Of a stretch of DNA of 64,000 nucleotides, positions 1,677 to 54,802 are shown one piece after another. The stretch is from Psychromonas ossibalaenae ATCC BAA-1528 (GTDB lineage: Bacteria; Pseudomonadota; Gammaproteobacteria; Enterobacterales; Psychromonadaceae). Below the pieces are notes generated by a model, which worked only from the letters and a program-made list of their open reading frames with translations, did no database searches and was not told the DNA's origin. Position 1 is the first letter of the stretch, and every line of letters begins with the position of its first letter. The translations under genes were made by a program, and so were the position numbers. Location: assembly GCF_000381745.1 (NCBI RefSeq), contig NZ_KB906973.1, positions 62,001 through 126,000 of the forward strand. The letters run 5' to 3'.

Positions 1677-1803
1677 TTTGTTTATTCCAATTATTTTTCC
1701 ACGTATAAATAATAGTTCTTTTTCAGTGAGTTGTTATTGGCGGAAACTGTGAAGTTTCGACAATCTCTGTCTTTGGGTATTGGTCGCATGTTGGTATGCA
1801 GAG

Positions 1804-1841
1804 AAAAGCCCTAGAGCAATAAAAATCGTTCCAGGGCTTTT
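1804..1841 (-). terminator. Hairpin terminator after the PEP-CTERM gene
   Basis: AAAAGCCCT (1804-1812) pairs with AGGGCTTTT (1833-1841) around a 20-base loop. On the minus strand it lies about 30 bases past the stop of the PEP-CTERM gene and ends in a T-rich stretch, so that gene is probably transcribed alone. Confidence 0.6.
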
Positions 1842-1869
1842 GTAATGATGATGCTACTTTAGTCTAGCT

Positions 1870-2391
1870 TTACTGTTTTTTGTTACGGCGGGCAAAACCA
1901 AAACCAATTAATGCCAAGCCCAATAGAGCAGCACCTGCCGGAGCGGGAACGGTTGCGGAGAAGGTTGTCTTTCTGCCTTCCCTCACTTGACTTGTGTATG
2001 TCCACTGAGCCGCAGTATCAAGATAGTTAGCATGGTGTAGAGTCCCATTCCCGGTAACTACTATGCCCTCTCCATCTACGACGTTCTTAACGACTACATC
2101 AAGATCAAAAGTAAAACCATTTACGACCCATAGCGCATTGACAGGTCCAATAGACGGCATGTCTAGAAAAGTAACTGCCATACCCTCGCTGCCTATAAAA
2201 TTACCAGTTGTTAATGCTGCTAAAACAGTGGAAAAATCAATTTTAGTCACTACCCCAGCAACAACCGTATTGCTTGAAGTACCGAAAAAATCAATTGAAC
2301 CATCTATTTCCTGTAGTGGGAGTGCCGATACTGTTAAGCTGCTAAGTAAAAGCATTGTTGATATAAAAAATGTTGAAATAAATTTTTCCAT
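1870..2391 (-). CDS. PEP-CTERM sorting-signal protein (exosortase substrate)
   Basis: A secreted protein of 173 aa that should be processed by exosortase. The N-terminus MEKFISTFF followed by a hydrophobic stretch ending VSALP is a signal peptide. The C-terminus has the tripartite sorting signal: motif VPAPAG, the hydrophobic helix AALLGLALIGFGFA, then the basic tail RRNKKQ. The motif is the VPAPA variant of PEP. The start at 2391 is chosen because GAGGGG lies just upstream; an in-frame ATG 24 bases earlier has no Shine-Dalgarno. The body is rich in small and beta-prone residues and has no domain I recognise. It is the only PEP-CTERM protein in the window, has its own sigma-54 promoter and terminator, and the probable sortase is XrtA at 18768-20258. 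Confidence 0.85.
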   Translation of the reverse strand: MEKFISTFFISTMLLLSSLTVSALPLQEIDGSIDFFGTSSNTVVAGVVTKIDFSTVLAALTTGNFIGSEGMAVTFLDMPSIGPVNALWVVNGFTFDLDVVVKNVVDGEGIVVTGNGTLHHANYLDTAAQWTYTSQVREGRKTTFSATVPAPAGAALLGLALIGFGFARRNKKQ

Positions 2392-2456
2392 TTCATTCCC
2401 CTCACTAATAATCACTTATGGTACGAACATAAATTTGTACTACTTTCCATAACTAC

Positions 2457-2472
2457 AGCATAAATAGTGCCA
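2457..2472 (-). promoter_or_regulatory. Sigma-54 (-24/-12) promoter of the PEP-CTERM gene
   Basis: Read on the minus strand the site is TGGCACTATTTATGCT. This matches the consensus TGGCAC-N5-TTGCW with one mismatch, and the GG-to-GC spacing is exact. The expected start of transcription is about 55 bases before the ATG at 2391. The activator is likely PrsR (5599-6951), which carries the GAFTGA motif needed to contact sigma-54. Confidence 0.8.
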
Positions 2473-2891
2473 AATTAGTAAATGTTATTTTTATCATATG
2501 CTTATATGTTTTTCTTGGCGCTCGGAAAAATTAATTGTAAAGTTTCTCGTCAGTTAAAGTCGAGATTTGGCTTAATGACTGTATACAGCCTGGAAAGCAG
2601 CTGCGAAAGGGGGGCTAGGCATATGTGTGCTGTAACCCACAGATGTTTTTGCTGGTTATTTGATGTTTGGAATTGTAACTATTTGATTATAAATAGAAGT
2701 TGTTTTGTTGTTATATGCTCCGTAAGAGATTACCTGAGATAATTACTCCCTCTTTATTTGCAGTCAGTGTAATATTTTTCGACATTAGCAGGATCAAACA
2801 GTTAGTATTAATGAAAGTCATTATGAAATGCTATATACCCAGGCAGTCCGGGTATGCAGCATTTCAAATTCAGGTTTCTCTGAACAGCAAA
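2473..2891. other. Intergenic region upstream of the sigma-54 promoter; contains one strong hairpin
   Basis: I see no credible gene here; short open frames on the plus strand lack protein-like composition and ribosome sites. The left part (2473-2650) is where PrsR enhancer sites would be expected, but I could not identify a repeated operator beyond the 10-bp palindrome CTGTATACAG at 2579-2588. Bases 2824-2866 form a long two-part hairpin (TGAAATGCT pairing with AGCATTTCA, with TACCC pairing with GGGTA inside). It lies just past the end of prsT on the minus strand and could be its terminator, though it lacks a T-run. Confidence 0.5.
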
Positions 2892-5540
2892 CTAGTTTAC
2901 TGTTTTATTATTGATTTGCCTTAAGTGCTCTTTGATTGCCTGCTCATCTGGCGCGAGCTGCACAGCCTTCTCGATTAACGCTTTACCAGCAGCTTGCTGG
3001 CCATTATTAAATAATATCCAGCCGTAAGTATCTACAATAGCGCCGTTAGTTGGATTAATATTATAAGCTCTTTTGGCTAAGCTGACGGCTCGATCATTAC
3101 CCTGTTCAAAATAGATCCAGGCGGCATTGTTAAGGCTTGTTACTTCGTTTGGTGCTTTTTTTAGTATCTCTTCATAAAGCAGCAGAGCTTGTTTTGTCTT
3201 GCCTTGTTTCTGCTGATAGATAGCATCATGGCGTATGGCCCTAAGGCTGCCGGGTATTTCTTTTCGCCAGTCAGCAAGATATTTCACCGCGGCTGCGGGA
3301 TCTGTTTTATTTAAGGTTTGATAAATTTTTTCTGCGATGAATTCATTCTTTTTCTCCTGCCATTCTTTCTGTAATGAATCTACCGCCTGCTGCGGCCTGT
3401 CCTGCGCTAGGTGCAGGTCTGCCTGCAGTATATGAGATAGAGGACTGTCCGGTAGTAAAGCTGCGATCTGATCAGTAATCTTCTGCGCTTCTTCGTATTG
3501 TCCGGAACGAATCTCGACATTTGCTAATAAACCCAGCAGACTCTGTTCCTCAGGAGATTCTTTAAGCGCGTCTAAAAGTATTATCCGCGCATTTTTATAA
3601 TCTTCCCTGGCGAGCGCTGCGGATGCTTTCTTCATATTAAGCTGTTGTATCAGTTTATTTAACAGCGGTTGATATTTTTCCGGTAAACCTTTGTCTGCTG
3701 ACTGGCTAAGCTGGGTTGTTAAGTCCAGCTTATTCTGCTGCAGGGCTAAATTTGCTAATGTCAGCGCGAGTATTGAAGGCTCATGATTACCCGGAAAATG
3801 GTTTTCAGATTTGAACGGATCTAAGCGCAGCTGGATTAAACTTAAAACCAAACCTCGGTAAGCTTGAATCTCCTGAGGATAAAGATGAACTATTTCTTTG
3901 AAATTTAATAAGTTAAGCTGCCATTTCTGCTGAATTTGATAGATGTAACTTAAGCTGTAAAGCGCCTGAATATTACCTGCTTCAGCTGTTCTTATTTTGT
4001 TTAAAATCTGTTCGGCATCGCTGAAGTTTTTCTGATGAATTCGATAACTGGCAACAATTAGTTGAGTTTCTGTGCTGTTTTTATAGGAAAGTGCTAGTTG
4101 TTTAACGTAGTTATCTGTATCTGATGTGCGTTTTAAAATCAGCAGTTGTTTAATATAAGCCGTCTGCAGTTTCGGATCTGCCGGTGATGCCTGTAATGCT
4201 GCGCTCAAGGTTTGTAATGCTTTTTCAGGCTGCGGTGTGGTTAAACGATTGTAGTAAAGAGCCTGCAGTAATATTAGCTGCGCTGCATCTGGATGTAGTT
4301 TTCTTGCTTGATTGAGGGCTGTTTCAGCTTTTTCAAACTGTTTTTCTTTAATAGCTGCTGTCACATAAAGTGCCCAGGTATCATTATTGTACTGTTCCTT
4401 CGGCATATTCTCTAATAAAGCTAAAACGTCATCGGATTTGTTAAGCTTTAGCTGGGCAACGGCATAGAGTTCCGTAAGCTTAGTTGCGGAGGTTTCTGGA
4501 TCAACCACATCGGATAAATGCTTTTCTGCATTATTAATATCACCCTCACTGTAGAGTATCAGCCCCAGCAGCGTATTCGATTTTTTATGGGAGGGGGCTG
4601 TCTCAATAATCTCCTGTAAAACCTTTTTGGCTTCTGTTAACTGGTTTTTTTTAAATAACTCCAGCGCGACGGTATACTGCTGTCTTACAGACTCGGCTCC
4701 GGGAAACTCTTCTGCTAATATTCGTGAATAGATCATCGCCTCTGCGCTGCGTCCCTGCAGGGTTAAAACATCGGTTAAACGCTGCAGTATTTCGATCCTG
4801 TCGGGGGTGAATATATCTGCTGACGGTAATGCACTTAATGCTAGAGAAAGTGTTTGTTCAGCATTAATATAATCTCCCTTATCAATATAGACACGACTTT
4901 TCAGAATTAAAGCTTCACTGTTTGTCGGCGCTAGTTCAATAATATCATCAAGGATCTTCAGTGCGCCGTCGTGGTTCTGCGACACAGCTTCGATACGAGC
5001 GATGCCAAGCATACTGTCAATTTCATAATCTGGGTCTTTTACTAACTGATTAAAAGCCTGCAGTGCTTCCTGTAGTTTATTTGAATACAGCCATTGCTGA
5101 GCCTGCGCAAATGCAAAACGCTGAGGCTCTACGGCTAACAGCTGTTGATGTCCGTTAATAATTTTCTTAGACGAAGTCAGTTTACCTGATTTTTGATAGG
5201 CTGTGAGCAGGGAGAAATAATACTCACTTTCTTTAACGCCGGAATAACTTTCAAGTACTTTAATACTCTGCTCAGCTTGACCGGATTTTTGATAAGTAGC
5301 TGCTAAAATAAGGTAACCGTCAACTTTGTCCGGATTTGCTTTAACTGCTTTATTGGCAGCGGTAAAGGCTGCTTGAAACTGGTGCTGCTGAAGATAAGAC
5401 TTTCCCTGCTGGACGTACATTGCCAGGTTGCCTTTTTGTGAATCGGGAGATTCATTACAACCTGACAGTAAAGCTGCGCAGATAAGTATTATTATTGATA
5501 AAACAATTCTTATTTTATCACTGCAGTAAGTTGCCTTCAT
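2892..5540 (-). CDS. prsT: PEP-CTERM system TPR-repeat lipoprotein PrsT
   Basis: A large lipoprotein of 882 aa found with exosortase systems; its exact job is unknown, but TPR arrays usually act as protein-binding scaffolds. The N-terminus has a lipoprotein signal with lipobox LLSGC (Cys28). The remainder is a long array of tetratricopeptide units, seen as repeated A-x(3)-G-x-Y/L-x(2)-A helix pairs, for example near residues 40-75, 205-240 and 770-830. It is the last gene of the prsK-to-prsT set on this strand, 58 bases past prsR, and follows the usual PEP-CTERM gene order. The name rests on family length, lipobox, TPR content and context. Confidence 0.88.
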   Translation of the reverse strand: MKATYCSDKIRIVLSIIILICAALLSGCNESPDSQKGNLAMYVQQGKSYLQQHQFQAAFTAANKAVKANPDKVDGYLILAATYQKSGQAEQSIKVLESYSGVKESEYYFSLLTAYQKSGKLTSSKKIINGHQQLLAVEPQRFAFAQAQQWLYSNKLQEALQAFNQLVKDPDYEIDSMLGIARIEAVSQNHDGALKILDDIIELAPTNSEALILKSRVYIDKGDYINAEQTLSLALSALPSADIFTPDRIEILQRLTDVLTLQGRSAEAMIYSRILAEEFPGAESVRQQYTVALELFKKNQLTEAKKVLQEIIETAPSHKKSNTLLGLILYSEGDINNAEKHLSDVVDPETSATKLTELYAVAQLKLNKSDDVLALLENMPKEQYNNDTWALYVTAAIKEKQFEKAETALNQARKLHPDAAQLILLQALYYNRLTTPQPEKALQTLSAALQASPADPKLQTAYIKQLLILKRTSDTDNYVKQLALSYKNSTETQLIVASYRIHQKNFSDAEQILNKIRTAEAGNIQALYSLSYIYQIQQKWQLNLLNFKEIVHLYPQEIQAYRGLVLSLIQLRLDPFKSENHFPGNHEPSILALTLANLALQQNKLDLTTQLSQSADKGLPEKYQPLLNKLIQQLNMKKASAALAREDYKNARIILLDALKESPEEQSLLGLLANVEIRSGQYEEAQKITDQIAALLPDSPLSHILQADLHLAQDRPQQAVDSLQKEWQEKKNEFIAEKIYQTLNKTDPAAAVKYLADWRKEIPGSLRAIRHDAIYQQKQGKTKQALLLYEEILKKAPNEVTSLNNAAWIYFEQGNDRAVSLAKRAYNINPTNGAIVDTYGWILFNNGQQAAGKALIEKAVQLAPDEQAIKEHLRQINNKTVN

Positions 5541-5598: not shown

Positions 5599-6951
5599 CT
5601 AGTTCTGATTTAAATTATATTTTTTCATTAGGTCATATAGTGTCGGTCGGGTAATTCCTAATAATTTTGCTGCTGCTGAGACATTATTTTCTGTGGTGAT
5701 TAATGTTCTTTTTAAGGCCTGTATCTCTGCATTCTGACGAACTACTTTTAAGTTCAGCGGTGTCTGGTTTGCTAATTTCAAACCAAGATCTTCAGCGCTG
5801 ATATATTTCTGTTCACACATAATTGCGGCCCGTGTAACTTTATTGCTAAGCTCGCGAATATTACCCGGCCAGAAGTGTTCTTCGATAGCGTTAATGGCAT
5901 CCTCAGTAAAACCGATAATTTTCAGATTCTGCTCCTGGGTGTACTTTTTCAGTAAATAACGTGCAAGTAATATTTTATCGGCACTACGCTCTCTTAAGGC
6001 TGGTATATCAATCTGTATTTCAGCTATCCGGTAATAGAGATCTTCACGGAACTCACCGTTTGCCATCATAGCTTCAAGGTCTCTGTTAGTTGCACAGACA
6101 ATTCGTGTATCAAGGTGAATTAATTCTCGTCCTCCGACGCGCTCAATGACTTTCTCCTGTAGAAAGCGCAGCAGCTTAGACTGCAGCTGCAGTGGCATTT
6201 CACCTATTTCATCTAGAAATACCGTACCGCCGTTGGCAAGTTCAAATTTTCCAGGAGTGCTTTTTACTGCTCCCGTGAATGCGCCTTTTTCATATCCGAA
6301 AAGCTCACTTTCAAATAAATTTTCAGGCAGCGCCGCGCAGTTAATTGCCACAAAACGTTTCTCATTACGGGGACTAAGAGCATGCAGTGATTTAGCTAAA
6401 ACCTCTTTTCCTGTGCCGCTTTCGCCGAGTAATAAACATGCAGCATTAGTTGGTGCGACTTTTTCTATCAATCGGCATACTTTTAACATTTTATCGTCGG
6501 TGGTGATTAAACCTTCAAGTGTACTGCTTTTAGCCTGGTTAAATTCTCTATTTTTTGTTTCTAGCTGATGCATATGAAATGCCCGCTGCACGATAAGATC
6601 CAGTGTCTGCGGATCAACGGGTTTACTGTAAAAGTCATAGGCTCCAAGATTAACTGCTTTAAGTGCATGTTCGTTACTGTCATTACCTGTCATGACAATA
6701 ATTTTCATATAGGGGTTCATATGCAGGGCCTGCTGCAGCAGGTCAAACCCTTGAGTAACCCCGTCCTCGTCCGGAGGCAGGCCAAGATCCTGCACCATTA
6801 CTTTGGGCTCATGTAACCTGATCGCGACGACCGCCTCGCTTAATGTGGTGGCTGTAACGATATTATAATCACAAAAGTGCCATTTTAACTGGGTCAGTAA
6901 GCCGATATCGTCTTCGACAATTAATAAACTCGCCTCGTCATCTTTTTTCAA
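5599..6951 (-). CDS. prsR: PEP-CTERM-box response regulator PrsR (sigma-54 activator)
   Basis: A NtrC-type regulator of 450 aa that should switch on sigma-54 promoters of PEP-CTERM genes. The receiver domain (about 1-125) has the acidic pocket EDD near residue 14, the phosphoacceptor Asp55 in QDLGLP, and Lys110 in YSKP. The central AAA+ domain has Walker A GESGTGKE (176-183) and the sigma-54 contact loop GAFTGA (223-228). The C-terminus is a Fis-type helix-turn-helix (AAKLLGITRPTLYDLM). The partner kinase is PrsK at 11322-13397. The best target in the window is the promoter at 2457-2472. PrsK/PrsR control of PEP-CTERM genes is known from the family; the link here is inferred. Confidence 0.92.
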   Translation of the reverse strand: MKKDDEASLLIVEDDIGLLTQLKWHFCDYNIVTATTLSEAVVAIRLHEPKVMVQDLGLPPDEDGVTQGFDLLQQALHMNPYMKIIVMTGNDSNEHALKAVNLGAYDFYSKPVDPQTLDLIVQRAFHMHQLETKNREFNQAKSSTLEGLITTDDKMLKVCRLIEKVAPTNAACLLLGESGTGKEVLAKSLHALSPRNEKRFVAINCAALPENLFESELFGYEKGAFTGAVKSTPGKFELANGGTVFLDEIGEMPLQLQSKLLRFLQEKVIERVGGRELIHLDTRIVCATNRDLEAMMANGEFREDLYYRIAEIQIDIPALRERSADKILLARYLLKKYTQEQNLKIIGFTEDAINAIEEHFWPGNIRELSNKVTRAAIMCEQKYISAEDLGLKLANQTPLNLKVVRQNAEIQALKRTLITTENNVSAAAKLLGITRPTLYDLMKKYNLNQN

Positions 6952-11321: not shown

Positions 11322-13397
11322 CTAAGCCGATTTGTTTAAGTCTTTTTCTGCGATATTTAAGGGTAAATAGATGGAAAATGTGGTGCCTTTTTCTTTAACA
11401 CTCTCAACAAAAAGCTCTCCCTGTAACGAGTGTATTAGCTCTCTTATCTGATAGGCTCCTAGTCCCATGCCTTCATTTTTTTTTGTACTAGAAAACGGTT
11501 TAAATAATAGTTCATTTATAAAAAATTGCTCCATTCCACAGCCTGAATCTTTGATTTCTAACCATAAAGCTTCTTTTTGCGTATTTAATTTAATCGCGAT
11601 TGAACCGTTGTCCGGCGTGGCATCCTGAGCATTTTTTATAAGATGGTTGATGACCATTAATAATTTGTCCGGGTCCGCCATAACAAAGGCTGTCGGCCCG
11701 TTAATGGACAAGACCGGTTTGGGAAAACCATTGGAATTCATTTCCAGCGCATTTAACAGAGCATCATTAACATTGACCCTTTCCATGTTTCCCTGCGGGT
11801 TTCCCTGTAGTTTAATTAACAACTGATCCATTTTTTTTACTGAATTAGTGATGGTTAAAATTACGTCGCTGACAAACTCGGGTTCATGCTTGAATTTGTC
11901 GGCATTTTTTATCATCAGGCGCTGCTGTGCGACCAGGTTTTTTATATCGTGAATTGCAAAAGCGGTGACCTTGTTAAACAGATCAAATTTTTTATTCTGA
12001 ATTAATTTTTCCGATGCCTGCTGATGATCAATATAACTGGCGACTTGTCTTCCGGTAAGTTTCAGGATGTCTAAATCTTCCCATGTTAAGCATGATAAAA
12101 CCGATTCTTTGCATAATACGATGAAACCAATCAGGTCATTACGGTTATTAAGGGGGACAATCGTCCAGGCATTCTCTGTATTAACAAACCATTCCGGCAG
12201 ATGCCCGTTATAGGAGTTATCAGTGTCGCTGGAGTAGCGGGGGGCCTGAAAAACCCACTCCTGCTGTTCCATTATCTGAATAAAATCACTGTCGTTAGAT
12301 TCAATCGGCAGGGTGGATTGTAAGTCTAGATTTTTTACTGCTACGAGAGAGAAAAACTGCTGTCCTTTTATCCATATTCCACCCTTATTGCAGTCAAATA
12401 AGGTTGTCATGGCCAGCAATGCTGTCTCATAGCTATTGCTTTCCTGTTTTTTTTTGGAAAGCAGAATATCCAGTTTTATCCACTGCTTATGATAGTCATA
12501 TTTGTGAGTGAAAAAATGTTTGCTGGTCCAGACATTGACTCTTCGTCTAAATTTTTCCATGCATGACAAAGTTGCAATCGCAAATACCGCCATCACGTAG
12601 AATAATATTTCCAGAACTTCAGCCCATTGAATACTAAGTGATTTAACGGCAAAGCCGAGTAATGACATGGAAACTAAAAAAGTACCCGCTAAAATAAAGC
12701 TGGTATTAAACAGGATCACTGTATTTGAAAGCTTAAATTGACTTTCTTGACGCTGTTTAAACGGATAAATAATAATACTGAGAGTAAGCAGCAGCGAGGT
12801 ACTGCTGCTGATAAATCCACGCGCATACCAGAGACTGTTGCTGTTGCTGATCTGCAGCAGTAAATTGCAGTAAACCAAAGTATCATAAGCAACCTGGGTG
12901 ATCACAACGAGTCCGACAAACTTTGCTATACGGCTGGAATCGGGGTTTCTAAGCAGTTGTTCGGCCATGACAATAGCGGCTAAACAGAACAGTATTTTTA
13001 CGTAAAGCCATAATATAGGATAGGGGAATTCAGCTAAACTGCGGGTTAATCCGTAGCAAAAAATGATCAGACAGAGTGTCGTACATATATTTATGCTCAA
13101 CGGCCACTGCAGCGGAATTTTTGTTTTTCGTGAATGTATTAACAGATAAATAAGAACAGCTAGCCAGCTGCTGTAACGCAGAATTTCAAGGTTCTGAAAC
13201 TGCCAGCTCAGCGCAGTAAGAGTGACAGGGCTGCTTGCTAAGCTAATGTGCCAGAGAGCGGCAGAAACCGCCATAGCAGTAAAACTAAGCTTTAATTTTA
13301 TGTTTTTGATATTAATTAAAGCGGTAACCGCTAATGCAATTTCAACACAGACTGTTAATAAATCAAAAATAGTTAGTTTTAAGTAATAATCGATCAT
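11322..13397 (-). CDS. prsK: PEP-CTERM system sensor histidine kinase PrsK
   Basis: A membrane histidine kinase of 691 aa, the expected partner of PrsR. Roughly the first 290 residues are hydrophobic with about eight membrane segments. A GAF-like domain follows (about 310-460). The kinase core has the H-box AIHDIKNLVAQQ, the N-box HLIKNAQDATP, and G-boxes KDSGCGM and GMGLGAYQIREL. The H-box has the HDIKN form seen in the PrsK family. No signal it might sense is evident. It lies 90 bases past wecC and upstream of the export genes; prsR is five genes further on, so kinase and regulator are split within the same strand set. Confidence 0.9.
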   Translation of the reverse strand: MIDYYLKLTIFDLLTVCVEIALAVTALINIKNIKLKLSFTAMAVSAALWHISLASSPVTLTALSWQFQNLEILRYSSWLAVLIYLLIHSRKTKIPLQWPLSINICTTLCLIIFCYGLTRSLAEFPYPILWLYVKILFCLAAIVMAEQLLRNPDSSRIAKFVGLVVITQVAYDTLVYCNLLLQISNSNSLWYARGFISSSTSLLLTLSIIIYPFKQRQESQFKLSNTVILFNTSFILAGTFLVSMSLLGFAVKSLSIQWAEVLEILFYVMAVFAIATLSCMEKFRRRVNVWTSKHFFTHKYDYHKQWIKLDILLSKKKQESNSYETALLAMTTLFDCNKGGIWIKGQQFFSLVAVKNLDLQSTLPIESNDSDFIQIMEQQEWVFQAPRYSSDTDNSYNGHLPEWFVNTENAWTIVPLNNRNDLIGFIVLCKESVLSCLTWEDLDILKLTGRQVASYIDHQQASEKLIQNKKFDLFNKVTAFAIHDIKNLVAQQRLMIKNADKFKHEPEFVSDVILTITNSVKKMDQLLIKLQGNPQGNMERVNVNDALLNALEMNSNGFPKPVLSINGPTAFVMADPDKLLMVINHLIKNAQDATPDNGSIAIKLNTQKEALWLEIKDSGCGMEQFFINELLFKPFSSTKKNEGMGLGAYQIRELIHSLQGELFVESVKEKGTTFSIYLPLNIAEKDLNKSA

Positions 13398-18767: not shown

Positions 18768-20258
18768 CTATATTTTTGGGGAAGGGACTGTTGAGTGACT
18801 GATAAACTCAGAAGAAAAGTCACTTATTATCTGCAGTGCATGACTTTGCTCCTGGTTATGGTAGTCAAATGCGATTGCTACGAGCGTTGCGCCCGGGCTG
18901 CCTTTTATTGTGGCAATGGTTTCATTCCATTTCGAGCGTCTTTTATCTGCGCTAAAGTGTCCGTCGTTTACATACCAGTAGGCAATTAGCCGTGAACGTT
19001 TTGTATCTCGGCGAAGTCTGATTAAGTTGACTTTGTTGAGTACCGGGTTCTGCTTGATCGTTAATATCTCCTGCCCCGCAGATACCCAGCGATTTTCATT
19101 AAATAGACTGTTTTCTACAAAGATCATCTCTTTTCCTTGATGCTGGCGCACATAATTAGCCAGATAAACTTGAATTAGCATCTCCCCTTGGGAAAAGTAG
19201 AAAAACTGTTCTGAACTTGCTCCAGTTGAGGTGGGTGACCAGTTAGGACTGGCCGCATTAACCTGACCGAGTTGTTTATAGCTGCTTATCGCCGGTAATG
19301 TAAATTGATAGTCAGAATCAAAGCGGGAGGAAATATATAAAAAAGCACTCGTGAAGAACAGGACAATGGCGGATACCAATAATAAGTAACGTGTATTGAG
19401 AACTGGCTGTGCATTCTGCTCTACGGACTGAGTTGAGTTATCCACTGCGGGTTCATTAAAATTGGCTTGCCCGATAAGGATAAGAGGAAAAATACCGGCG
19501 GCAAAAACAAACCAGCCGAAGGTTAAATGATCTTGTACGATAAAGTGCTGCATATGGGTCTGGCTGCCGACAATAATAATAACTGTTATGCGGATCCAGT
19601 TAGCAATGATGGCGATACTTACTGCAAGTATCAGAAAGCCTAACCCTGCTTTATAAGTTAAATTATTAAATTGAGTAACAAAAGCTGCATATAAAGCCGA
19701 GACTAAAAAGAAACCAAGGCCTGAGCACGCTTCTTCGACGCTAAATATACCGCCCGGTGTAATAAGGCGGTAACCTTCTCTAATTATTTCGAACCCGAGC
19801 AGATTAACGCTATGAAAACTTACCGTAGTTGAAATATCCCGTAACGGCAGCTGCAGGACATTCCATATTGGTAACGTTAAAGCTAATATCAGCAGCGGCA
19901 AAAATAAAGTCTTAATAATTTTATAACCGTAAACCGATGTTAACAAAGCGGTTATGATAAGAAATACGCTCAGTTGTTGTAACTGACCTATGCTGGCAAG
20001 GTTTGCAGCAAAAAGTAACAGGCAGCTGCAGATAACGAACAGAAGTGTAACCGGGTTGAAGCTATAACGCCTGAAAATATCCCGTTTTAACCAGAAGCAG
20101 TACATGCTTAGGCCGAAACCTAACAGTCCGTGGTTATAGGGACCTACGCTCCACCATTCAGCTGTCAGTTCAGAAACCACCGATGGATTAGCCGCTAGAA
20201 CCAACACAATATTGAATGCAAAAAATGAAGTTAATTTTTTCCGGTCACTAAAAACCAT
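18768..20258 (-). CDS. xrtA: Exosortase A with C-terminal EpsI domain
   Basis: The membrane transpeptidase that should cleave PEP-CTERM sorting signals and pass the protein to a surface acceptor. At 496 aa it has an N-terminal exosortase part with about eight membrane helices and the three catalytic residues in their usual motifs: Cys178 in EEACSGLGF, Arg223 in NWIRI, and His244 in DHLTFGW. After about residue 285 comes one more membrane segment and then a soluble EpsI domain (about 310-496), as in typical long XrtA proteins. It precedes the heparinase-like gene. The candidate substrate is the protein at 1870-2391. A MITE-like element sits just upstream of the start. Confidence 0.93.
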   Translation of the reverse strand: MVFSDRKKLTSFFAFNIVLVLAANPSVVSELTAEWWSVGPYNHGLLGFGLSMYCFWLKRDIFRRYSFNPVTLLFVICSCLLLFAANLASIGQLQQLSVFLIITALLTSVYGYKIIKTLFLPLLILALTLPIWNVLQLPLRDISTTVSFHSVNLLGFEIIREGYRLITPGGIFSVEEACSGLGFFLVSALYAAFVTQFNNLTYKAGLGFLILAVSIAIIANWIRITVIIIVGSQTHMQHFIVQDHLTFGWFVFAAGIFPLILIGQANFNEPAVDNSTQSVEQNAQPVLNTRYLLLVSAIVLFFTSAFLYISSRFDSDYQFTLPAISSYKQLGQVNAASPNWSPTSTGASSEQFFYFSQGEMLIQVYLANYVRQHQGKEMIFVENSLFNENRWVSAGQEILTIKQNPVLNKVNLIRLRRDTKRSRLIAYWYVNDGHFSADKRRSKWNETIATIKGSPGATLVAIAFDYHNQEQSHALQIISDFSSEFISHSTVPSPKI

Positions 20259-22826: not shown

Positions 22827-24364
22827 AAAAAAGAAGTTCTCCTGTAACGGATGTCGATTTAAGCGGCAAAAATAGAATCGTTAGAAATACCTTAATCAGC
22901 TGGGCGAGTCATCTGGTTCTGGTCGTTTCTGGTTTTATTATGCCTCGCTTAATGCATGAGTATATAGGTCAGGTGCAGCTGGGAATCTGGGATTTCTGCT
23001 GGGCATTAATTTCATACCTGTCTTTAATTGGTTTAGGGATCGGAGCAAGTTCAAATAGATATGTTGCAAAATATAACGCAGAACATAAAACCGAAGAGCT
23101 TAGTAAACTTATCAGCTCTACTATAGCCATCGAAATTTTTATTTCTCTTACCATTTTTCTGGGGACTTTAACGGTTGTTTATACCATGCCGCTATTTTTT
23201 GCTGAAGAATTAGGTGAAAACGTACTTAAAACTCAATCGGTTATGTTTTATTTAGGCCTTAGTCTGGCGATCACCACGCTGTTTTCTATCAGCCGCGGAT
23301 TATTAACCGGTCATCACAGATGGGATTTACATAATGCCTTAACGGCAGGTTTCAGCGTGTTGTCACTGGTCATTATGATGACCATGTTAATGTCTGGTTT
23401 TGGCCTTGTTGGGATGGCGCAGGGATATTTAGCTTCAACGGTTATTATTGAAGTGATCCGCATTCTATTTGCCTCTCAATATACTAAACAAATTCACATA
23501 TCACCTTCTAATATATCCAAAGCACTATGCTGGGAGCTTTTAGGTTTTAGCGCTAAAGGAAAGCTGGCTGTACTGCCTCCAGTGGTTTTACTACAGTCGG
23601 TTAATATTCTCATTGTAAATGCATTCGGCCCGGCGGTTTTGGCGGTGTTTGCCAGGCCGCTTGCATTAACCCGGCATATATCAACTTTTATGGTTAAATT
23701 TACTATGATATTAACGCCGACGGCCGGCGCTATGTTAAGTGAAGATAAAGCGGAAGAATTGAAGTCATTTTTTCTAACGACGACTAAATTCAGTTTTGCT
23801 TTTACTCTGCCGCTGGTGATCGCTCTGGCTATTTTCGGCGACATCGTTGTCGCATTCTGGATGGGGGAAGATTATGCAAACTGGCTTCTGATAGCGGTTT
23901 TATCCCTGGGAGCTTTATTACCGACGGCACAAGACAGCTCCCTGCGTATTATGATTGCTAAAAATATTCATGGAAAAATATCTGTTTATATGAGCCTGAT
24001 TGTGCTGCTGACTTTTTTTATTCTTTATCTGTTATTTATTGAAAATAATTTTAATCTTATTACTGCTGCGTGTTTATTAATTATTCCGTCAAATTTGGCT
24101 TATGGTTTTGCATTACCTTTGTATGCCTGTAAAAAACTGTCCATCCCCGTACGAAGCTATTTAAGTAAAGCAGTGTTAAAACCCGTTATTGCTGTTCTTC
24201 CCTATGCCGCTCTGCTGTGTCTGGCGAAATATTTCTACTTACAGTATGCATATTTGTATTCAGTGCTGTTTCTTGTTTTTGCCTGTTTGTCTCTGGCTTT
24301 CTTATATAGTGTTTTACTGCTCAATAAATCTGAAAAAAATCATTTGTGGAATAAGATTCGTTGA
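22823..24364 (+). CDS. Wzx-type polysaccharide flippase (MOP superfamily)
   Basis: An inner-membrane protein of 513 aa with about 12-14 hydrophobic segments spread along its length, the pattern of lipid-linked oligosaccharide flippases. It should move the undecaprenyl-linked repeat unit to the periplasm. The N-terminal block NRIVRNTLISWASHLVLVVSGFI and the early amphipathic RLMHEYIGQVQLGIWDF are typical of the polysaccharide_synt/MatE families. It overlaps the sulfotransferase gene by 4 bases and is followed by the NodB-like gene after about 20 bases. With the WaaL/Wzy-like gene at 30548 it completes a Wzx/Wzy pathway. Identity as a flippase is good; substrate unknown. Confidence 0.88.
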   Translation: MKKRSSPVTDVDLSGKNRIVRNTLISWASHLVLVVSGFIMPRLMHEYIGQVQLGIWDFCWALISYLSLIGLGIGASSNRYVAKYNAEHKTEELSKLISSTIAIEIFISLTIFLGTLTVVYTMPLFFAEELGENVLKTQSVMFYLGLSLAITTLFSISRGLLTGHHRWDLHNALTAGFSVLSLVIMMTMLMSGFGLVGMAQGYLASTVIIEVIRILFASQYTKQIHISPSNISKALCWELLGFSAKGKLAVLPPVVLLQSVNILIVNAFGPAVLAVFARPLALTRHISTFMVKFTMILTPTAGAMLSEDKAEELKSFFLTTTKFSFAFTLPLVIALAIFGDIVVAFWMGEDYANWLLIAVLSLGALLPTAQDSSLRIMIAKNIHGKISVYMSLIVLLTFFILYLLFIENNFNLITAACLLIIPSNLAYGFALPLYACKKLSIPVRSYLSKAVLKPVIAVLPYAALLCLAKYFYLQYAYLYSVLFLVFACLSLAFLYSVLLLNKSEKNHLWNKIR

Positions 24365-25620: not shown

Positions 25621-26832
25621 ATGTATAAAGTTAAAATTCTATTCGCTCGTTTAACTATTTTTATTTTGTACTGCCTGATTTTCTTATTTGCACTGCTGCC
25701 GAAAAAGAAAGCCAAAAAACACGGGCATATAATTGTTCTAACGGGCACTTTTTATTCAAAAAACTGGATTGATGCTCATCTTATCCCGATCGTAACCTGC
25801 TCAAGCGTCCACCATGTGTATATTGTTGCAAATAATGTTAATTACAGTGTAGAGGGGCTGACGGTTGTTAAATCCCCTGAGCTGCTGACAAAATACTGCG
25901 GTGATACCCTTGCTCGTTTAATCTCTTTTTTTATCTGTTCGGTGCGCATGAAACCAGATTATATCGGCGGATTTCATATTCTTTTTAATGCATCTTTAGC
26001 AGTTTTGTTTGCCAAAATACTGAGATGCCGTTCAATCTATTTCTGTGTCGGCGGTATTACCGAAACGCTGGCCGCTGGAAAAACAGAAAATCGATTTTTT
26101 AAATTTCTGGACGGTAAAGACAAGTTTTTAACCTTGTATATCTGCCGTATTGCGGCCGCTGCAGACCGTATAATAACAATGGGTAACGGAGCTAAATTAT
26201 TTTTACAGGAAGCCGGTGTGCATGCTGCGAACATACATGTTATCTCGGGGGCAATTGATCATAATAAATTTTACCCCTGCGTGGTTCAAAATGGTAAAAA
26301 ATATGATCTGGTTTTAACGGCACGGTTGTCTAAGGTGAAGCAGGTTAATCTGTTTCTGGATGTTATTAATAAAATCCAATACCAAAAGCCGGATTGTAAA
26401 GCATTGGTGATTGGTGACGGACCGTTATTAAATGATTTAAAGTCTTACGCAGATTCTTTGAATGTCTCCGCTATGGTCGATTTTGCCGGACATCAGGATG
26501 ATGTGCTGAGCTGGCTGCATCAGTCGAAAATATATGTATTAACTTCCAGATCTGAAGGGCTGGCACTGTCCATGCTGGAAGGTTTAAAAACAGGGCTGCC
26601 TGCGGTTGTACCGAATGTCGGGGATTTATCTGATGTGCTGATTAGCGGTTACAACGGTTTTTTAATTGAAAATCATTCCGTTGAGGATTTTGCGCGACAG
26701 ATCTTGTATCTGCTTAATGATGAAAAACTCCTAAATGAGTATTCTCATAATGCGCTTGCATCGACTAAGCGTTTCGATATTGAGTGTGTTCAGACGCAAT
26801 GGCTTAATGTTTTTCAAGAACCGGGGAGCTGA
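25621..26832 (+). CDS. Glycosyltransferase family 4 protein, membrane-anchored
   Basis: A retaining GT-B glycosyltransferase of 403 aa. An N-terminal hydrophobic helix (about 8-28, LTIFILYCLIFLFALL) with following lysines should hold it on the inner membrane. The C-terminal half carries the GT4 donor site: YDLVLTARLSKVKQVN, ALVIGDGPLL, VDFAGHQDDV and the E-x7-E motif SEGLALSMLEGLKTGLPAV. The gene starts 15 bases past the NodB-like gene, and its stop is 1 base before the CapK-like start, so it is part of one operon. The sugar transferred cannot be told from sequence alone. Confidence 0.85.
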   Translation: MYKVKILFARLTIFILYCLIFLFALLPKKKAKKHGHIIVLTGTFYSKNWIDAHLIPIVTCSSVHHVYIVANNVNYSVEGLTVVKSPELLTKYCGDTLARLISFFICSVRMKPDYIGGFHILFNASLAVLFAKILRCRSIYFCVGGITETLAAGKTENRFFKFLDGKDKFLTLYICRIAAAADRIITMGNGAKLFLQEAGVHAANIHVISGAIDHNKFYPCVVQNGKKYDLVLTARLSKVKQVNLFLDVINKIQYQKPDCKALVIGDGPLLNDLKSYADSLNVSAMVDFAGHQDDVLSWLHQSKIYVLTSRSEGLALSMLEGLKTGLPAVVPNVGDLSDVLISGYNGFLIENHSVEDFARQILYLLNDEKLLNEYSHNALASTKRFDIECVQTQWLNVFQEPGS

Positions 26833-52347: not shown

Positions 52348-52679
52348 CATATTGGAACTGGAGGGTTAGTGCAATGATGCATATTCCGGAACTGGGGGTT
52401 CAACCCCGGCGATGTTGGCGTTTGTGTTTGTAGTACAATGCTGATACATCGTATATATCGGAACTGTGGTTTCAATCCTGGCGATGTTGGCGTTTATGTT
52501 TGCAGGGCAATGCCGTAGCTGTACTAGTGAGCCTTTCGCTACACCGTATATGTCGGAACTGTGGTTTTAACCCCGGCGGTGTTGGAGTTGTGTTTACAGC
52601 GCAATGCCGGAGCTGTACTAGTGAGCCTTTCGCTACATTGTATATATCGGAACTGGGGGGGCAACCCCGGCGTTATTGG
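52348..52679 (+). repeat. REP-like repeat array, left of the RAYT gene (five units)
   Basis: Units with the core TATATNNCGGAACTGKGGNTTNAACCCCGGCG lie at about 52348 (shortened), 52381, 52451, 52547 and 52640, all in the same direction. The GGGG/CCCC arms form a hairpin. Between the last units a longer spacer (GTAGCTGTACTAGTGAGCCT then TTCGCTACA) is repeated at about 52514 and 52609, so the array grew by duplication of a unit of about 94 bases. It starts just after the ComEA-like gene terminator. Confidence 0.85.
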
Positions 52680-52702
52680 TTCTATTTTTTAAGGTAAATA
52701 CT

Positions 52703-53224
52703 ATGGTTCACCATCATTTGCCACACTTTGATACCATTACTCATTATCAGTTTATTACTTTTCGTACAAATGATAGTACTGATGCATTTCTACATAAATT
52801 ATCAGTTCAAAACCAACCTAATAATAAAAAGCAATTACAGGCTGATTGTCATCTTGATACGTCATATCTGGGGGCATATTTAAATGACGATGTTTTACTA
52901 TATTTATGTGAGTTCATAAAAAGTAAAAATCGAGAATTATACCAACTCATTGCTTTTGTAATAATACCTAATCATGTCCATTTATTAATTAAACCACTTA
53001 AAAGCCTTCCTGTGCTGATGCATAGCATTAAAGGTGCGAGTGCTAAATCGATCAATGAGATTATCGGTAGAAGTGGTCCGTTTTGGGCTGCAGAATATTA
53101 TGATAAGGCGATTAGGGATGAGAAGCATTTTAATATTGTTTATAACTACATAAAAAATAATCTGTTGAAACTAAATGAAGAAGAATCGATTTTAAGATTC
53201 TATGGGATTTATGAAATAGAATAA
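52703..53224 (+). CDS. REP-associated tyrosine transposase (RAYT, IS200/IS605-like HUH family)
   Basis: A single-strand-specific Y1 transposase homologue of 173 aa. The His-hydrophobic-His motif is in IPNHVHLLIKP, and the C-terminal block PFWAAEYYDKAIRDEKHFNIVYNYIKNN is the family signature with the catalytic Tyr region. The N-terminus (YQFITFRTND) matches the first strand. RAYTs are domesticated transposases that move or maintain REP sequences. ATG 52703 is chosen because AAGG lies 8 bases upstream; the frame before it is REP sequence. REP-like units lie on both sides, so enzyme and substrate are together. The gene looks intact. Confidence 0.92.
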   Translation: MVHHHLPHFDTITHYQFITFRTNDSTDAFLHKLSVQNQPNNKKQLQADCHLDTSYLGAYLNDDVLLYLCEFIKSKNRELYQLIAFVIIPNHVHLLIKPLKSLPVLMHSIKGASAKSINEIIGRSGPFWAAEYYDKAIRDEKHFNIVYNYIKNNLLKLNEEESILRFYGIYEIE

Positions 53225-54292: not shown

Positions 54293-54802
54293 TTAACTTT
54301 CCGCTTTTTTAATCTCTTTATTGCAGAAGGAGATTTTATTTTCTTGATTAAGGATATTGAGTAATAACATCGAGCGCTCTAAGCCATCCTGCGCTTCAAA
54401 AATTGCACTTAACCCTTTAAATGAACCGCTCTTAATCTCAACTTTATCACCACTTTTAAATAATGACTGGGTATCAGCTTTAAGATCGTTAATTGAGTGG
54501 CAGGCATTTTCAAGCCGTTTTATGGTTTCCTCGGAAACGCGCGCAATTTCTCGACCAAATTTAACAAAATCATTAATACCACGTGTAGAGCGAATCTTGC
54601 TAAAGTTAGTATATTCTTGATCCACAAATATAAACAGGTAACTTGGAAAAAGAGCTTCTTCAACCGTACTTCTTTTACCTCTAATAATTTTTTCTTTACG
54701 GATTTTTGGAAAAAAGGAATGAATTCCTTGATTCTGTAAATGCAGCTGTGCACGAGATTCTTCTCGACTTTTACAATACACAACAAACCACTGCTTATTC
54801 AT
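54293..54802 (-). CDS. rfaH: Transcription antitermination factor RfaH
   Basis: A NusG paralogue that binds RNA polymerase paused at ops elements and lets long surface-polysaccharide operons be transcribed and translated. It has 169 aa (E. coli 162 aa). The NGN domain (1-100) has the start KQWFVVYCKSREESRAQLHLQNQG, RKEKIIRGKRSTVEEALFPSYLFIFVD and STRGINDFVKFG. A linker is followed by the KOW region (GDKVEIKSGSFKGLSAIF) and a C-terminus that matches E. coli (RSMLLLNILNQENKISF). An ops element lies 310 bases away, ahead of the divergent capsule operon. glpG follows directly. Confidence 0.96.
   Translation of the reverse strand: MNKQWFVVYCKSREESRAQLHLQNQGIHSFFPKIRKEKIIRGKRSTVEEALFPSYLFIFVDQEYTNFSKIRSTRGINDFVKFGREIARVSEETIKRLENACHSINDLKADTQSLFKSGDKVEIKSGSFKGLSAIFEAQDGLERSMLLLNILNQENKISFCNKEIKKAES

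Follow-up and report, generated by a model that had tools for sequence, protein, structure and literature searches.

The closest described system is the promoter element of Haft (2006, PMC1569441), reported in the available text as a motif (motif 1), a spacer and a sigma-54 motif, found upstream of 99 among 167 PEP-CTERM genes of Proteobacteria. The spacer has a mean of 62.8, a standard deviation of 10.6 and a range of 32-92, the units are mostly single genes, typically though not always preceded by a long stretch of non-coding DNA, and motif 1 is sometimes repeated. PrsK, PrsR and PrsT, with which the element co-occurs, were named from their matching phylogenetic profile, and the stimulus of PrsK was called obscure. 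In Aquincola tertiaricarbonis, transcription of pepA is rpoN1-dependent and its start has been mapped, with -24/-12 motifs TGGCAC and CTGCTT and a predicted enhancer upstream; plasmid-borne prsK or prsK-prsR failed to restore the prsK mutant (Xia et al. 2023, available text of PMC9850573). In Desulfovibrio vulgaris, a bacterium distant from the one studied here, the response regulator DVUA0057 was predicted to control PEP-CTERM genes, and in vitro enrichment by DAP-chip was seen for the five PEP-CTERM targets predicted for it; the legend naming PEP-CTERM in the available text describes the binding-site motifs as unvalidated for the regulators shown (PMC3333781).

An IHF site between the activator site and a sigma-54 promoter is common, judging from the available text of two reports (PMC7962754, PMC6296734). 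The NifA and CbrB promoters (PMC6296734) have the same order of activator site, IHF site and -24/-12 elements as the promoter described below, with different activators. For the enhancers of 61 Vibrio qrr genes, a tolerance of 10-11-base insertions and deletions has been argued in the accessible part of PMC4740811.

We analysed a stretch of 64,000 nucleotides from Psychromonas ossibalaenae ATCC BAA-1528 (hereafter the window), whose features at this locus are collected in Table 1. The layout reproduces the Haft element as given in the available text (PMC1569441), with a 17-base motif ending in TTTACA, a spacer near 63 bases and a sigma-54 -24/-12 promoter before a PEP-CTERM gene, in a genome where PrsK and PrsR score over their cut-offs and a PrsT-like protein has TIGR02917 as its best match, under cut-off. 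The product of the downstream gene has a PEP-CTERM tail whose Pfam score is barely over the cut-off (PF07589, 20.4 bits, or 20.8 bits with its neighbours in frame, cut-off 20.7) and which scores 20.3 bits against the NCBIfam VPLPA-CTERM model, under its cut-off of 25.35. Only the last part of the protein matches the PepA family (NF033554, 24.6 bits, cut-off 80). Like Aquincola pepA, the gene stands beside prsT, at a distance of about 500 bases, but downstream of it, whereas pepA lies upstream (available text of PMC9850573). The original prediction called it the only PEP-CTERM gene of the window, and it is indeed the sole PF07589 find there, though one of eight in the genome. PrsR, which the same prediction placed 3 kb away, has its GAFTGA motif and lies about 3.1 kb from the sigma-54-type site; it is 98% identical to PrsR of Psychromonas aquimarina. 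The chain-length and export proteins of the XrtA system are both over their NCBIfam cut-offs, and profile searches of the genome found one rpoN gene and one ihfA gene over cut-off. Elsewhere in the window, a look at the sequence suggests an RfaH/NusG-like antiterminator protein at 54293-54802 (minus strand), next to a cluster for capsule-type export at about 55-64 kb, and a protein resembling REP-associated (RAYT) transposases at 52676-53224 (plus strand).

Table 1. Features of the PEP-CTERM promoter locus, in positions of the window
Feature	Position	Strand	Basis
PEP-CTERM protein gene, 173 aa from ATG 2391, C-terminus VPAPAGAALLGLALIGFGFARRNKKQ	1870..2391	-	PF07589, NCBIfam
Predicted transcription start	2446	-	12 bases past the C of the -12 GC; from -24/-12 geometry
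Sigma-54 -24/-12 promoter TGGCACTATTTATGCT	2457..2472	-	Motif and weight matrix; 14/16 bases shared with homologue L072
IHF-like site TAAGCATATGATA, 1 mismatch to YAANNNNTTGATW	2492..2504	-	31 bases after PrsR box, 19 before T of TGG
PrsR box TGACGAGAAACTTTACA (motif 1 of Haft)	2536..2552	-	Motif, weight matrix; 16/17 bases same in L072
Second IHF-like site AATCAAATAGTTA, exact WATCAANNNNTTR	2676..2688	-	Lies between near and distal box; same sequence in L072
Distal PrsR-like box TGTCGAAAAATATTACA	2768..2784	-	232 bases upstream of near box
prsT-like TPR lipoprotein gene	2892..5540	-	TIGR02917 best match, 274 bits, under cut-off 312.2
prsR, sigma-54 activator with GAFTGA	5599..6951	-	TIGR02915, 659.6 bits, cut-off 502.6
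prsK, histidine kinase	11322..13397	-	TIGR02916, 465.3 bits, cut-off 300
Exosortase with EpsI-type C-terminal domain	18768..20258	-	Over cut-off for TIGR02602 and TIGR02914; XrtA model 169.1 bits, under 208

The sigma-54 site from which the original prediction started, TGGCAC-TATTT-ATGCT with exact GG-GC spacing, is real. Read on the minus strand from 2472 to 2457, TGGCACTATTTATGCT has an exact GG-N10-GC and one mismatch to TGGCAC-N5-TTGCW (10 of 11 consensus positions); its 3' end lies 65 bases upstream of the ATG at 2391, which GAGGGG immediately precedes on the 5' side. Transcription beginning at about 2446, as predicted, would give a leader of 55 bases. Taken alone, the sigma-54 motif is not clearly above chance, because the window holds 25 sites with at most two mismatches against 34.4 expected from shuffles, and the genome 101 sites with at most one mismatch to TGGCAC-N5-TTGCW against 81 with a reversed control. 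A weight matrix of PEP-CTERM promoters ranks TGGCACTATTTATGCT first in the window. Another near-consensus site, TGGCACTGTCCATGCT at 26561 (plus strand), lies inside the ORF 25621-26832, with no box-promoter pair there among the 12 best of the window, and was set aside as coding chance. The genome search that had been proposed, for TGGCAC-N5-TTGCW before PEP-CTERM genes, failed: of the eight promoters only that of the window is within one mismatch. This strict pattern is the wrong probe, and its failure is no evidence against a link to PrsK/PrsR.

The signal emerges when the promoter is considered together with the PrsR box. The box TGACGAGAAACTTTACA fits the 17-base motif 1 ending in TTTACA and stands 63 bases from the T of TGGCAC, within the spacer range of 32-92 given by Haft; it has TGAC where most boxes have TGTC. 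With a weight matrix derived from 161 elements, none of them from this genome, box and promoter together score 36.9, compared with a maximum of 27.1 over 60 simulated (Markov) windows, in a score whose gap term rewards common gaps. The combination of a box and a sigma-54 site at 63 bases is beyond chance. The second-best score of the window, 15.8, comes from aligning the same promoter with a shift, and since the next independent site scores 15.0, no EPS gene in the window has a comparable element. The expectation that the EPS genes are not under sigma-54 thus stands for elements of this kind, although sigma-54 promoters answering to other activators may serve them. The companion proposal, that the substrate rather than the glycan machinery would be the regulated output of PrsK/PrsR, fits the same scan.

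Across this genome, PF07589 finds eight PEP-CTERM genes, seven over the cut-off and one at 19 bits, and the gene of the window ranks seventh by score. The 17-base pattern TGWCR-N6-TTTACA is present upstream of all eight; for one of them, L004 on contig C20, it stands 183 bases away from the promoter, with just a weak box close by. Exact matches to the pattern number 29 in the genome, against 20 with a reversed control, and 28 of the 29 were scored, leaving out L061 at a contig end. When boxes were restricted to those outside ORFs of at least 100 aa with a GG-N10-GC 51-74 bases on, seven of the eight PF07589 genes passed, along with L064, L059 and L060. The first of these three (contig C49, box 23551-23567) precedes a gene whose product ends in VPGPNTIGLLILSLGLLLWSRKNKVK, a PEP-CTERM-like tail, and is a ninth candidate found via the promoter element; the product has no PF07589 listing at E 10. 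The other two were taken as chance, L059 having a promoter score of 7/11 and standing before an ORF that looks IS-like from its sequence, and L060 a score of 5/11 with no ORF behind it; the promoter of L006, a PEP-CTERM-like gene, also scores only 7/11. On contig C64, identical box-like 17-mers at 12195 and 15046 (L067 and L068) fall within two ORFs that are alike in size and about 2.9 kb from each other, which may reflect a gene duplication.

Comparison with related genomes connects the element to the regulator. In 60 relatives, the box-plus-promoter pattern gave 128 matches, against 9 with a reversed control. PrsR is over cut-off in 30 of the 60, with PF07589 hits in 28 of those 30, and the element is found in all 28 PF07589-positive genomes as opposed to 3 of the 32 PF07589-negative ones. 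These three genomes, which lack a PrsR over cut-off, have one match each, and all three were rejected: one lies inside an ORF (G028), one has a promoter score of 6/11 (G004) and one, scoring 8/11, stands before no PEP-CTERM gene (G057). Conversely, G030 and G054 have PrsR over cut-off (about 687 bits) with no PF07589 hit (E 0.01) and no element; their system may have decayed, or their substrates may belong to another type. The co-occurrence of PrsR and element agrees with the profile of Haft on more genomes, of which some may be among the 13 used there. A second set comprised 369 genomes of the class, 365 of them outside the 60 (G000, G029, G031 and G053 being shared), with gaps of 32-91 bases allowed; a first search gave 44 matches against 3 in the control, and a second at least 150 against 2.

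We found 16 homologues of the window gene in the relatives, 37-62% identical in protein, and 9 of these have prsR no more than about 5 kb away. The element precedes all 15 that are readable, with scores of 25.4-42.3, two of which (25.4 and 26.7) are under the best simulated 64-kb window; L082, at a contig end, was left out, and L088 and L089 represent a second piece and a different gene. Ten of the 15 also have a distal PrsR-like box, 189-259 bases upstream. Between the window and homologue L072, 16 of the 17 bases of the box and 14 of the 16 of the promoter are the same, compared with 7 of the 31 bases that follow the box. The original prediction tied this promoter to PrsK/PrsR, and the PrsR box at the expected distance, together with the elements before 15 of 15 homologues and in 28 of 28 relatives, supports that tie at the level of sequence. 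The idea of a PrsK/PrsR-sigma-54-PEP-CTERM connection was already published as a prediction (available text of PMC1569441).

Judged by eye, 24 of 30 loci, one per genome, have a PEP-CTERM-like gene downstream, and 3 of the other 6 lie inside ORFs. Among 90 elements, 61 are followed by a complete ORF. A simple rule for the tail classes 39 of these 61 as PEP-CTERM-like, a crude judgement in that the rule over-calls (L199, L230, L275) and misses L188. In some other genera, a look at the sequences showed the element before genes that do not resemble PEP-CTERM genes, for GGDEF-type proteins (L178, L276) and for a small protein ending in LEFKR-like letters (L180, L223, L224), which hints at a wider PrsR regulon.

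The distance between box and promoter is quantised. In the 128 matches of the 60 relatives, the gap from TTTACA to TGG falls mainly at 49-52 (21 matches), 61-64 (80) and 72-74 (13). For the 194 matches listed from the 369 genomes, which include matches inside ORFs, the gaps peak at 52, 63, 74 and 85 bases, one helical turn apart. Among these 194 listed matches, 140 are within 1 base of 41, 52, 63, 74 or 85, with 3 at 46-48, 57-59 and 68-70 and 4 at 79-81; the peaks were named after looking at the gaps. A peak at 41 is only possible, because it has 4 matches, of which 2 come from G116 and one is inside an ORF (L127). The periodicity is 0.68 at about 11.3 bases, compared with a mean of 0.13 and a maximum of 0.26 over 2000 jitters that moved each gap by up to 5 bases. 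With 63 bases, the window has the modal gap, about three helical turns. The homologues have gaps of 51, 61, 61, 62, 63, 63, 64, 71, 71, 73, 73, 73, 74, 82 and 83 bases, which are no independent test of quantisation because the score favours common gaps; from one species to another, promoters of homologous genes thus seem to have shifted by whole turns. The standard deviation of 10.6 reported by Haft is what such clusters would produce.

The spacers also share a motif, YAANNNNTTGATW, which we take to be the reverse complement of the IHF consensus. In 81 non-redundant elements, sites within one mismatch of the motif concentrate 17-20 bases ahead of TGG (26 of 81), and the IHF-like site of the window, between the box and the -24 element, is at this commonest place. 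For a test set, 100 other matches were fetched and the 10 inside same-strand ORFs dropped. Of the 90 remaining elements, 23 have a site with at most one mismatch at 17-20, against a mean of 0.61 and a maximum of 3 in 500 shuffles (mean 0.52 and maximum 5 when repeated with 300 shuffles). Exact motifs at this place number 8 of 90 (0.028, maximum 1, in 500 shuffles), and those with at most two mismatches 48 of 90 (4.8, maximum 11, in shuffles). The position rule was set without the test elements, though the motif was first spotted by eye in listings that held their letters, and some test genomes also gave discovery elements. In the opposite orientation, hits fall 4-8 bases ahead of TGG in 15 elements of the first 81 and in 12 of the 90 others, against shuffle means of 0.87 and 0.77, for a range chosen after both sets had been seen. 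An IHF-like site with at most one mismatch occurs in 11 of the 15 readable homologues, and near one of the two places in 6 of the 9 elements of this genome. From the PrsR box to sites of the 17-20 class the distance is 19-21, 30-32, 40-44 or 52 bases, so that the IHF-like site appears fixed to the promoter and the box to shift by turns of about 10.5 bases. Upstream of the near box, the homologues L080, L083, L084 and L085 have a further IHF-like site with one mismatch, in the same orientation, 76-77 bases away.

The AT-rich motif could instead be DNA with a bend of its own, or a contact site, either UP-like or a second one for PrsR, in a promoter that still depends on sigma-54 and PrsR. IHF sites are weakly specified and AT-rich, the shuffles preserve base composition only, and fewer than half of the elements, 39 of 81 and 35 of 90, have a site within one mismatch at one or other of the two places, all of which would suit such a reading. 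Between the window and L072, however, the IHF-like site keeps 8 of its 9 specified bases and none of the 4 unspecified ones, and the flipped motif has a place of its own. We regard a motif unrelated to IHF as unlikely.

Against a leading role for sigma-54, most transcripts of the gene could come from a sigma-70 promoter or from polymerase reading on out of prsT, leaving the sigma-54 site a minor one. Sigma-70-like hexamers, ATAACA-17-TATAAT, lie upstream of the gene at 2714-2686 on the minus strand, with further ones at 2563-2534 on the same strand, and no terminator-like site was found in 1700-3000, including the interval after prsT, so that some transcription of this kind may occur. The number of hexamers is nonetheless near chance (5 against 3.8), and those at 2714-2709 and 2691-2686 are lost in the L072 alignment, where the conserved bases start with the second IHF-like site (2688), whereas the box and the -24/-12 elements are nearly kept; as the main source of transcription, a sigma-70 promoter or read-through is improbable. 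That the -24/-12 match is a chance motif, as the unremarkable number of sites with at most two mismatches might suggest, is hardly credible in view of the box at the modal spacing, the conservation and the co-occurrence with PrsR.

With the layout, spacing rule, conservation and co-occurrence with PrsR observed here, the site is very probably the core of a PrsR-dependent sigma-54 promoter that drives the PEP-CTERM gene with the help of an IHF bend and a turn-wise spacing of the box. From the sequence we infer the following course, with PrsK as the donor. On some signal, PrsK would phosphorylate PrsR, which would bind the box at 2536-2552 and possibly the distal box at 2768-2784 too. IHF, binding at about 2492-2504, would bend the DNA into a loop and bring PrsR against the sigma-54 polymerase at 2457-2472. 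PrsR would then open the promoter through its GAFTGA loop and ATPase, and transcription would start near 2446. The IHF-like site would hold a constant position with respect to the promoter, and the PrsR box may stand about two, three, four or five helical turns off, here three. For the gammaproteobacterial PrsR/PEP-CTERM regulon at large, it is likely that the IHF site is fixed 17-20 bases (flipped, 4-8) before the -24 element and that the box stays on one face of the helix, evolving by whole turns even between homologous promoters.

The promoter of the window belongs to the known element of Haft; no published account of the quantised spacing or of the fixed IHF-like site was found. Word searches of the available texts found no IHF, integration host or phasing in Haft 2006 (PMC1569441) and no IHF in the D. 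vulgaris report (PMC3333781). No publication with PEP-CTERM and IHF as whole words turned up in a search that most subscription papers fall outside, literature naming PEP-CTERM and 'integration host factor' was off-topic by title, and PEP-CTERM was absent among the best matches listed for the literature on helical spacing, which is a weak check. Compared with the NifA, CbrB and qrr promoters, as far as the available texts describe them, the present case concerns one regulon in many genera, with an IHF-like site fixed to the promoter and a box that shifts by whole turns.

A three-part promoter lying near its own regulator provides a direct test bed for the little-understood switching on of exosortase substrates and the signal behind it. 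The spacing rule makes the regulon more readable in sequence, since it helps to tell PrsR promoters from sigma-54 motifs that arise by chance and can flag substrates with unusual tails. If it is true, the element alone could find exosortase substrates that profile models miss, such as the VPGP gene on contig C49, and the three-part rule would amount to a natural, genome-wide experiment in DNA looping.
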